Part shown: positions 24,379-27,020 of the stretch, piece after piece | Layout: each line of letters opens with the position of its first letter | Position numbering within the stretch: position 1 is the stretch's first letter | NCBI GenBank assembly: GCA_029552985.1 | Contig: JAKPDB010000127.1 | Span: 1 to 32,131, forward strand | From: a bacterium | GTDB lineage: Bacteria > Ratteibacteria > UBA8468 > B48-G9 > DTJG01 | Length of the DNA stretch: 32,131 nucleotides | Reading direction: 5' to 3' | The notes under the pieces: generated by a model | Database searches by the model: none | What the model saw: the letters and a program-made list of their open reading frames with translations, nothing else | What the model was told of the DNA's origin: nothing | Program-made: the position numbers and the translations under genes

Positions 24379-24407
24379 TTGACTTTTTACCATTTTACCA
24401 TTATACT
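24379..24407 (+). promoter_or_regulatory. Putative sigma70 promoter of parA (TTGACT-N17-TATACT)
   Basis: -35 24379-24384, -10 24402-24407, spacer exactly 17 nt; predicted start point falls on the ATG at 24414. Confidence 0.65.
24386..24401 (+). repeat. Exact tandem 8-bp direct repeat (TTTACCAT)x2 inside the parA promoter spacer
   Basis: TTTACCAT 24386-24393 and 24394-24401; read directly. Confidence 0.9.
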
Positions 24408-24413
24408 GTTTCC

Positions 24414-25193
24414 ATGGCCACAATCTACTCTATTACAAATCAAAAAGGTGGCGTTGGAAAAACTACAACATGTCTTTGTCTTGGTTCAGCTCTTGCTGAA
24501 AAGGGATACAGGGTATTATTGATTGATTTTGACCCTCAGGCCGGGCTGACAGTATGTCTTGGTTTTGACCCTGATTGTTTTCCCACGACCATCTATGACG
24601 TCATCATCAACTCTGAACAATATCCCCTGCAAAAAATTATTACAGATACAAGAGTTCTCAATCTCAAAATTGCTCCAGCCAATCTCGATCTTGCGGGCGC
24701 AGAAGGCGAATTAATAGGTGAAATTGGTTGGGATAGAAACCTCAGGGATGCCATTAATCCTATCAAAAATGAATTTGACTTTATTTTTATTGATTGCCCT
24801 CCAAGTTTGGGAGTTCTAACAACAAATGCGTTAATCAGTGCGCACACAGTAATTGTGCCAGTGCAAACTGAGTTTCTTGCATTACGTGGATTAAAGCAAC
24901 TTGGAGATATTATTGCAAAGGTAAAGAAAAAGGGTAATCCCTCTTTAAGAAAGAGAATCCTTCGAACCATGCATGATGTAAGAACCCTTCATTCAAAGGA
25001 AGTTGTTGAAGAACTTGAAAGAATTTTCCCTGATGAAATTTTTAAAACTATCATCAAACGTACTGTGAAGTTTGCGGATGCTTCTCTTGCAGGAGTTCCC
25101 ATTTTGCTTTATGCAAAAAGTTCAGAAGCCGCAGAGGCATACAGACATCTTGCAGAGGAGGTGATTGAGGATGCCAAAGAGACCGTCTCTTAA
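24414..25193 (+). CDS. parA: ParA/Soj family partition ATPase
   Basis: MATIYSITNQKGGVGKTTTCLCLGSALAEKGYRVLLIDFDPQAGLTVCLG, 'DFIFIDCPPSLGVLTTNALISAHTVIVPVQTEFLALRGLKQL'. Start at 24414 rather than ORF-track 24330: conserved N-terminus begins there. Confidence 0.93.
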   Translation: MATIYSITNQKGGVGKTTTCLCLGSALAEKGYRVLLIDFDPQAGLTVCLGFDPDCFPTTIYDVIINSEQYPLQKIITDTRVLNLKIAPANLDLAGAEGELIGEIGWDRNLRDAINPIKNEFDFIFIDCPPSLGVLTTNALISAHTVIVPVQTEFLALRGLKQLGDIIAKVKKKGNPSLRKRILRTMHDVRTLHSKEVVEELERIFPDEIFKTIIKRTVKFADASLAGVPILLYAKSSEAAEAYRHLAEEVIEDAKETVS

Positions 25194-25455
25194 AGGCAGG
25201 GGCGTTGACATTTTTCTTGGAAAACCAGAAAAGAAAGAAAAAGTTAAAAAAGAGGAAAATAAGGGTAAAGCCACTTTTTACTTCCCCCAGAAACTTATCT
25301 CAGATCTTGACGAAGCATGGTTTGTCCTGAGAAGAATTGACAGAAAAATTAAAAAGTCAGATATCGTTCAGGCAGCCCTGGAAATTTCACTGCAGGGATT
25401 AAAGGAAGGGAAGGAAGAAAACCCGTTGATTCAATATTTCAAAAAAGAAAAGTGA
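25171..25455 (+). CDS. Small ParA-partner protein: basic N-terminus plus ribbon-helix-helix-like domain
   Basis: MPKRPSLKGRGVDIFLGKPEKKEKVKKEENKGKATFYFPQKLISDLDEAWFVLRRIDRKIKKSDIVQAALEISLQGLKEG...; beta-strand/helix/helix pattern of RHH proteins; overlaps the parA 3' end; SD GAGGAG. Confidence 0.7.
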   Translation: MPKRPSLKGRGVDIFLGKPEKKEKVKKEENKGKATFYFPQKLISDLDEAWFVLRRIDRKIKKSDIVQAALEISLQGLKEGKEENPLIQYFKKEK

Positions 25456-25510: not shown

Positions 25511-26095
25511 ATGAATACAAACAAGATCAATGAGTTCGATGACGAAACCCTCGTAAGAAGAGTACAAGAGGAAGAAGATATGTACGCATTTGAGATGCTT
25601 GTGAAAAGATACCAGGATAAAGTTTATGGAATTTGTTTCAGATTTATAGGTGAACATCATGAAGCGTTTGACTGTACCCAGGATACCTTTGTCAAAATTT
25701 ATCAAAAAATTCACTCATTCAAGCATCTTTCTTCATTTGGAACATGGGTCTACAGAATTGCAGTCAATACCTGCAAAAATCGATTGTCCTGCTGGGACTT
25801 TATGAGAAAGAAAAAAACAATGTATCTTGGAAACAGTGGTGCTAACATTGAAAACCACTTCATTTCTCCTGCACAACAATATGAAAAAACCAGAATCAGT
25901 GAAATTGTTCAAAATGCCATCAGTAAACTGCCCTTTGACCAGAAACAGATTGTGATTCTTCGCGATATCCAGCAACTATCCTATGAAGAAATTGAAAAAA
26001 TCACAAACCTTCCGCTCGGGACAGTCAAGTCAAAATTATCAAGAGCTCGCAGTAAACTCAAAGAACTGTTAAAGGACATCAAACATGAATTGTAG
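25511..26095 (+). CDS. ECF-type RNA polymerase sigma factor
   Basis: sigma2 'DDETLVRRVQEEEDMYAFEMLVKRYQDKVYGICFRFIGEHHEAFDCTQDTFVKIYQKI'; sigma4 'LPFDQKQIVILRDIQQLSYEEIEKITNLPLGTVKSKLSRARSKLKELL'. Confidence 0.93.
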   Translation: MNTNKINEFDDETLVRRVQEEEDMYAFEMLVKRYQDKVYGICFRFIGEHHEAFDCTQDTFVKIYQKIHSFKHLSSFGTWVYRIAVNTCKNRLSCWDFMRKKKTMYLGNSGANIENHFISPAQQYEKTRISEIVQNAISKLPFDQKQIVILRDIQQLSYEEIEKITNLPLGTVKSKLSRARSKLKELLKDIKHEL

Positions 26096-27020
26096 AGAAG
26101 TTCAAAGGATTCTTTCTGATTATCTTGAAGGACTTGTTTCAGATTTGCAGAAAAAAGAAATTGAGCAACATCTTCAAATGTGCCAGAAATGTCAGATTGA
26201 ACTTGATGAAATGAAAAAAACTGTGAAACTTCTCAGAAGCATTCCCTCACCACAAGCACCAGAAAAACTGGTCGAAAGCGTAATGGAAAAAATCAGTGCT
26301 GAAAAACCCAGAAAAAGAAAATTTGCATTTTTATTAACCGCGATTGCATTTGCAGAAATTATTGTGTTTGTTGCGCTTTTCAAAATTCAAAAGCCGGTCC
26401 AGATTGTATATCAGCCAGAAACTCACGTAAAAATCACCCAAAAACACCAAGAAGAAAAAAAGCCAGAGATTGTTAAGAACAAACCGGTTTCTCGCGTTAA
26501 AGAAAAAAAGAACGCCATTGTTTCTGGTGAAAAAACGCCAGAACAGGTAAGAACAGAAATTGTGATTCAACTTGCATATCTTCCTCAGCCGCAAATGACT
26601 TTCGCAAAAAGAAATTCAGAGAAGGAAATTGGTGCAAATGTTCTAGAACAGCAAAAACCTGCTGAAGTTTCATTGCTTGATCAGGGTATGAAAAAAGAAA
26701 CTTCTGTAGAGAAAAAATCTCAGGAAATTGTAACATCGCTGGCAGCAAAATCTGCTGGGATACCTGCGCCAGCAGAAAAATTGAGCGTTGAATCTGAAAT
26801 CATCAAATACATTACTGATGCCGGTGGAAAAATTCTATCAGCATCACCTGCTTCTGATATAGAAGTCAGTTATGTATTTGTTGCAGAAATTCCTGCTTCT
26901 TCATACAAAAATTTCCTTGACAATCTGGCAGGAAAATTTCAGATAAAAAATTATGATCTCATCAAGGATGCCGCGGTTTCTGAAACCTTTATCACAATAA
27001 GATTACAGATTTTCAGATAA
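26085..27020 (+). CDS. Zinc-finger anti-sigma factor, single-pass membrane protein
   Basis: N-terminal zf-HC2: MNCREVQRILSDYLEG...EIEQHLQMCQKC (HxxxCxxC); TM segment FAFLLTAIAFAEIIVFVALF; overlaps the sigma gene by 11 bp. Confidence 0.85.
   Translation: MNCREVQRILSDYLEGLVSDLQKKEIEQHLQMCQKCQIELDEMKKTVKLLRSIPSPQAPEKLVESVMEKISAEKPRKRKFAFLLTAIAFAEIIVFVALFKIQKPVQIVYQPETHVKITQKHQEEKKPEIVKNKPVSRVKEKKNAIVSGEKTPEQVRTEIVIQLAYLPQPQMTFAKRNSEKEIGANVLEQQKPAEVSLLDQGMKKETSVEKKSQEIVTSLAAKSAGIPAPAEKLSVESEIIKYITDAGGKILSASPASDIEVSYVFVAEIPASSYKNFLDNLAGKFQIKNYDLIKDAAVSETFITIRLQIFR

Follow-up and report, generated by a model that had tools for sequence, protein, structure and literature searches.

The window analyzed here, i.e., the whole stretch of 32,131 nucleotides, belongs to a draft genome of 2.2 Mb (86% complete) that carries three parA genes. 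One of these lies on the forward strand at positions 24414 to 25193 (ATG at 24414, stop at 25193) and encodes a Soj-like Walker-type ATPase of 259 amino acids, with a Walker A motif of the deviant type (NQKGGVGKTTT) and a match to Pfam AAA_31 (E = 4e-56). It overlaps by 23 nt a second forward-strand gene (25171 to 25455; ATG at 25171), the product of which (94 amino acids) has a motif at its N terminus, followed by a linker and a probable ribbon-helix-helix (RHH) domain. An earlier note on this DNA had described this overlapping pair, and both the overlap and the residues that it quoted proved to be exact. The promoter of parA (24379 to 24407, forward strand) comprises a -35 box (TTGACT, 24379 to 24384), a 17-nt spacer, and a -10 box (TATACT, 24402 to 24407), and it is conserved in 7 congeneric genomes, while the flanking DNA diverges. 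Because the ATG is only 7 nt past the -10 box, the parA mRNA is probably leaderless. The spacer is filled by two tandem 8-bp TTTACCAT units (24386 to 24401, forward strand). These units are conserved in the genus, with one or two substitutions in some species, and constitute a putative RHH operator that the partner protein may bind.

This partner, referred to as type A, was found in eight genomes, in all of which it directly follows and overlaps parA. Its N terminus, RPSLKG[RK]G.[DE]IFL, is nearly invariant across the eight orthologues and the remainder is well conserved in the alignment, while the linker that follows the motif ranges from about 10 to 30 residues and is also variable in sequence. 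Adjacency to parA across related genomes and conservation of the N-terminal motif, both of which had been proposed as checks, were thus confirmed. Since the two genes are always adjacent and overlapping in eight genomes, and the N terminus is kept while the linker varies, the pair represents more than a chance arrangement. Directly downstream of the partner gene, at 25511 to 27020, the window carries genes for an ECF sigma factor and a zinc-finger anti-sigma factor, which are kept in six type A loci and may be functionally linked to the pair.

The solved structures nearest to the window ParA are those of M. xanthus-type ParA, mycobacterial ParA, and Soj (E = 1e-56 to 5e-41 in a PDB profile search). 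The E values of these Soj-like matches are lower by at least 30 orders of magnitude than those for ParF (E = 4e-9) and delta (E = 5e-11), and by its sequence, the window ParA is outside the ParF/delta subgroup. In a maximum-likelihood tree, the ParAs associated with type A and with three further partner types described below (B, C, and D) formed one group each, apart from the main clade of ParB-partnered ParAs.

The type A partner matched no family in Pfam or NCBIfam, and a PDB profile search with it yielded sensible matches only to RHH proteins (TTHA0139, E = 0.15; CdbA, E = 0.34). In its AlphaFold2 model, a disordered tail is followed by an extended segment (residues 33 to 38) and three helices (residues 40 to 54, 62 to 78, and 85 to 93), with a core pLDDT of ~90. 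A predicted ribbon (KATFYFP) and the first two helices would together form the RHH DNA-binding domain (residues 32 to 78; 25264 to 25404, forward strand), and the third is an extra C-terminal helix (25423 to 25449, forward strand). The best Foldseek match to the model was 3no7, the RHH centromere-binding ParB of plasmid pCXC100 (TM score of 0.66 by target; E = 1.7), and lower-ranked matches included other RHH proteins. As several weak signals agree (PDB profiles, model, and Foldseek), none of them significant alone, RHH is the best reading, and the RHH-like fold claimed in the earlier note is probably correct. A point that counts against the interpretation given below is that Foldseek gave no meaningful match, and no RHH match, for the model of the type B partner.

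Canonical partition and chromosome-organizing genes were searched for in 35 genomes of the source phylum. PF02195 (ParB_N) matched in 0 of 35, compared with matches over the cutoff in 303 of 351 genomes outside the phylum (from a sample of 386 genomes including the 35). TIGR00180 likewise gave nothing over the cutoff within the phylum, whereas the search for canonical ParB was positive in 10 of 14 control genomes. A weak TIGR00180 match in one phylum genome (G013) was rejected as a ParB; it is a short HTH-like open reading frame on a contig with transposase-like genes. The parS core GTTNCACGTGNAAC was present in 0 of 35 genomes in the phylum versus 18 of 26 outside, where it often lies next to parA. 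The same held for SMC over the cutoff (0/35 versus 20/26) and for ScpA (0/35 versus 22/26). The source bacterium and its phylum therefore appear, from their sequences, to have lost ParB, parS, and SMC. The earlier observation that no other ParB-like gene is visible in the window extends to the rest of the 86% complete genome (0 matches to PF02195), and a separate canonical parABS, for which a search had been suggested, was found neither in the source genome nor in the 35-genome set. The description of the locus as a minimal ParA system devoid of the ParB CTPase and HTH domains is supported by the same absence of ParB_N. In one family of the phylum (f4; G028, G030, G032, and G034), no Soj-like ParA was found either, in addition to the absence of ParB, SMC, and ScpA.

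At no fewer than 55 of the 58 parA places in the phylum, the gene after parA is a small one whose RHH-like product has a three-part layout of N-terminal motif, linker, and RHH-like domain; two of the remaining three places are contig ends, and one has no recognizable partner. Outside the phylum, the partner encoded after parA was, in most of the cases examined, a canonical ParB with LG[KR]GLxALI. The RHH-like partners fall into about six types with type-specific N-terminal motifs: type A (the window type; 8 genomes), type B (MKKxGLGKDPLSWI; 26 genomes in three families, including the source genome at contig C70), type C (RLGSDPLSWI; 8 genomes, including the source genome at contig C166), type D (MKRLGPQxKKLFE; 11 genomes), and two further, rarer types. 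The neighborhoods of types A, B, C, and D are chromosomal. The window pair is thus accompanied by other, parallel ParA-RHH systems in a phylum devoid of ParB, a point that the earlier note missed. The type C gene precedes a GAF/histidine-kinase-like gene. In C166 of the source genome, the type C parA and its partner are separated by a 71-amino-acid open reading frame (MALKKVMGSKIGRLDLKM...), which matched nothing in Pfam and is missing from most congeners.

The N termini and the RHH domains are reshuffled among the partner families, as judged from sequence comparisons. Types B and C have a GLGxDPLSWI tail in common and differ in their RHH domains, their hhalign match covering mainly the tail and linker. 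Conversely, type C and a family of plasmid proteins have a common RHH domain (hhalign probability of 99%) and different tails. Distant plasmid-borne relatives of the type C and type B partners are encoded immediately after parA in five genera (Tenacibaculum, Flavobacterium, Adhaeribacter, Lawsonia, and, more distantly, Prosthecochloris), and in a sixth, Thermus, a relative is encoded by an unannotated frame that follows a fragment of parA. The plasmid partners are annotated as hypothetical proteins and have a GGLxxLLG-like tail (GGLSSLLG, GGLNSLLG, GGLGSLLQ, SGLATILG, and GGLDDIIR in the five genera) and an RHH-like domain; Pfam gave nothing significant for them. Outside the phylum, the type B DNA-binding domain (PKYQTY...RITKNS...DIPDE) has relatives that occur on their own, and in the four of these that were read, GLGxDPLxWI was missing along with the parA neighbor. 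The swaps between B and C and between C and the plasmid family, together with these tail-less relatives lacking parA, indicate that the tail travels with ParA and joins different RHH domains.

Residues 4 to 17 of the window partner (RPSLKGRGVDIFLG; 25180 to 25221, forward strand) form a ParB-like segment that is a candidate ParA-activating peptide. In alignment with the ParB pattern G[KR]G[LV]..[LF][IL], the type A tail matches in pattern and spacing, with the first leucine displaced, and R10 of the partner aligns with the central basic residue of ParB. A position-specific scoring matrix (PSSM) built from 16 ParB N termini, with p values from shuffles and background proteins, gave p values of ~0.01 for the window tail, ~0.02 to 0.03 for type B, and 0.002 to 0.02 for four of the five plasmid tails; the tails of type D, type F, Lawsonia, and an unrelated genome (G036; see below) were not significant. 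Every RHH-partner tail scored fell below all true ParBs, and type A fell well below. The ParB-like N terminus proposed in the earlier note is supported in its pattern, but the likeness of the type A tail to ParB, at the sequence level, is modest.

In M. xanthus, the ParB residues that matter are L11, R13, L15, L18, and I19; R13 is near ParA Y81/E82/D110/E117, and the hydrophobic residues fill a ParA pocket of V116, L150, L152, L155, L187, and L192 (PMC12462528). The ParAs of types B and C retain nearly all of the residues of the peptide pocket and the arginine cage. In type A, the cage (Y81-D82-D110-E117) is kept in 8 of 8 ParAs, as is L150-G151, and the hydrophobic pocket is altered (V116G, L152V, L155T, L187K, and L192G), which counts against our interpretation. 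With the cage intact and the pocket substituted, the arginine contact seems to be conserved and the hydrophobic contact reshaped, and the type A tail can be regarded as a candidate activator of ParA. In type D, the ParA lacks Y81 and the partner lacks the basic residue. The altered pocket, a PSSM p value of only ~0.01 per family, and type D and F tails that are unlike ParB could also be taken as signs that the resemblance is coincidental and that the RHH domain or the C-terminal helix contacts ParA. We consider this unlikely, given that the tail is conserved as strongly as the RHH core with a variable linker between them, that types B and C share the tail and not the RHH domain, that the plasmid relatives score independently as ParB-like tails, and that the cage residues of type A are kept together with the basic residue.

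In types A, B, and C, the promoter has a conserved element that is specific to the type: the tandem repeat of type A, AAGTTATGAACTTCATA-like repeats between the -10 box and the start in type B, and a palindrome, TGTAAACNNNGTTTACA, in type C. Outside the promoter, one site resembling the type A repeats was seen on a 200-kb contig from a relative; their only clear site is the two-repeat one in their own promoter, which counts against our interpretation. The type B unit, AASTT with a period of 8 (AASTTNNN), recurs elsewhere on the chromosome in arrays of three to nine units. On the sampled contigs to which these counts refer, arrays occurred at six places (one of them the promoter; expected, ~0) on the 145-kb contig of G006 that holds type B, at four on G014:C13 (one is the promoter), at three on G010:C3, and at five on G004:C150 (expected, 1.3). 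None occurred on 200 kb of the type A contig of G006. None was found on three type B parA contigs either, including that of the source genome itself, which counts against our interpretation. In all three contigs that hold ppdK, representing two families, an array starts directly after this gene, within tens of bases of its stop codon. A motif-free period-8 scan recovered exactly the type B arrays on two contigs at a relaxed threshold; a stricter threshold matched nothing even on array-bearing contigs. On the contigs examined, dnaA was not found, and the origin was not located there. The RHH-ParB of pSM19035 activates its ParA only with at least four contiguous repeats (PMC9499535), and the longest type B arrays reach this number. 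From its sequence and placement, the type B array at ppdK is a candidate centromere.

Taking these observations together, we consider it likely that the window pair is a chromosomal ParA-RHH module for partition or DNA positioning. The partner would dimerize through its RHH domain and bind 8-bp repeats; the pair of repeats inside the parA promoter would mediate autorepression, and further partner-bound repeats are expected at the DNA cargo. The flexible tail would dock on the ATP-bound ParA dimer and stimulate ATP hydrolysis in the manner of the ParB N-terminal peptide. Paired tails reaching a nucleoid-borne ParA-ATP dimer would trigger hydrolysis, by which the DNA complex would be moved over, or tethered to, the nucleoid. 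Such a ratchet would resemble that of ParABS and would operate without CTP clamps, spreading, or SMC loading. ParA-RHH modules would then stand in for the missing ParB-parS-SMC axis in the phylum. The type B module, with its aroE neighbor, GLGKDPLSWI tail, and AASTTNNN arrays, would be the likeliest chromosome segregator, and type A would be a genus-level paralogue acting on some DNA cargo. With somewhat less assurance, we lean toward a broader reading, in which the phylum lost ParB, parS, SMC, and ScpA and segregates its chromosomes by means of ParA-RHH modules that were repeatedly built from portable tails (ParB-like or GLGxDPLSWI) and unrelated RHH domains. New centromeres would be 8-bp arrays at conserved places, e.g., after ppdK, and the window pair would be one of up to three such modules per cell.

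The RHH domain might instead serve only for autoregulation, with the protein linking ParA to a cargo other than DNA. A genome with several ParA paralogues can use them to position different cargos (PMC10241942), and the sole clear type A site being its own promoter fits this possibility. So does the arrangement of type D, in which the pair precedes a gene for a PilB/T2SSE-type ATPase in 11 of 11 loci (Pfam T2SSE, 6e-138; e.g., L058:4015-5730); the constant presence of this neighbor suggests that type D may position or regulate type IV pili. For type A, we regard a non-DNA cargo as doubtful, since only the ECF sigma/anti-sigma pair follows it, with no obvious cargo gene, and the partner model consists of tail, RHH domain, and short helix with no extra domain.

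It is improbable, in our judgment, that the pair is a plasmid- or element-derived cassette that stabilizes an integrated element rather than serving the chromosome, even though a ParA with an RHH partner is a typical plasmid arrangement, related pairs resembling types C and B occur on plasmids as described above, and type A is limited to one genus and one distant genome. A scan of GTDB genomes for type A recovered only seven loci, all in genomes of the source phylum, and tblastn searches found no type A in plasmid and phage collections. Within the genus, the type A neighborhood is stable, with a block of genes for the ECF sigma factor, the zinc-finger anti-sigma factor, a LysE-like transporter, and a sugar isomerase in six to seven of seven loci, and housekeeping-type genes are close by on several type A contigs. 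Additionally, the parA of the paralogous type B adjoins aroE in 18 loci from three families. Finally, the absence of ParB, parS, and SMC is very improbable as an artifact of incomplete metagenome-assembled genomes: although all of the genomes are many-contig drafts and the source genome is 86% complete, ParB_N is also missing from the 16 of these 35 that reach 90% completeness or more with contamination of 5% or less, four independent markers (ParB, parS, SMC, and ScpA) are missing together from every phylum genome, which incompleteness does not explain, and parA genes are present with other partners instead.

A chromosomal ParA-RHH module, the reading that we prefer, has counterparts among known systems. 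As the window pair would, TP228 ParF-ParG, pSM19035 delta-omega, and pCXC100 ParAB combine a short ParA with a small RHH centromere-binding protein bearing a flexible tail. Autoregulation and centromeres of short tandem repeats would also be common to these plasmid systems and the present one, for which the two TTTACCAT units of the type A promoter and the type B AASTTNNN arrays agree with the operator/centromere organization of RHH plasmids at the level of sequence alone. In contrast to the ParF/delta plasmid systems, the ParA here is Soj-like, the tail resembles that of ParB, and the genes are chromosomal in a genome without ParB. The SegAB system of archaea (Sulfolobales) is likewise a chromosomal ParA-like ATPase with an RHH partner, and SegB binds sites upstream of its own operon (PMC12284271, PMC9178275). 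The window pair has in common with SegAB a chromosomal location, a ParB-less genome, and an RHH partner (here a probable one). SegB reportedly lacks sequence similarity to bacterial proteins, and we found no description of a ParB-like tail on it; the PDB profile search with the window partner gave no SegB match. Unlike in SegAB, several different RHH domains carry ParB-like tails here, and they do so in bacteria. By analogy, the mode of working may be like that of delta-omega/ParF-ParG and SegAB. With canonical ParABS and SMC-ScpAB, the module shares the Soj-family ParA, the G[KR]G[LV]..[LF][IL] tail pattern with its first leucine displaced, and overlapping genes for ParA and its partner, but it occurs in a phylum without CTPase/HTH ParB, parS, SMC, or ScpA. 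Since both ParB and parS were searched for and are absent, the window pair is not a member of canonical ParABS. In McdAB-type and other cargo-positioning systems, too, the gene for a small adaptor adjoins that of a ParA-family ATPase; unlike in those systems, the adaptor here is predicted to be an RHH protein that binds DNA, and a putative operator lies in the promoter.

ParB, parS, and SMC are regarded as near-universal bacterial means to mark, move, and fold the origin region. RHH-based partition and the archaeal chromosomal SegAB are already known, and in the open-access literature searched, we found no prior report of a bacterial group devoid of ParB and SMC with RHH partners. As far as that literature shows, the replacement across a bacterial phylum, the shuffling of tails, and the RHH arrays at conserved chromosomal places are new. 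If our interpretation is correct, the ParA motor is conserved and the centromere-binding part is exchangeable for another fold, as in SegAB. Natural domain swaps of this kind uncouple the peptide that would activate ParA from the CTP switch and the sliding clamp, and they lead directly to two questions: what a partner must provide to ParA, and whether an RHH array can segregate a chromosome without SMC loading. The tail-RHH architecture on plasmids of Bacteroidota, Lawsonia, and Chlorobi would represent previously unnamed partition partners that are annotated as hypothetical proteins. Additionally, an unrelated genome (G036; 99% complete, 1.2 Mb) matched neither ParB_N nor ScpA and gave nothing over the cutoff for SMC. 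On its contig C2, parA is followed by a gene for a 107-amino-acid RHH-like protein with a TLGSNPLEAYL tail and nothing significant in Pfam, which is possibly a parallel case.
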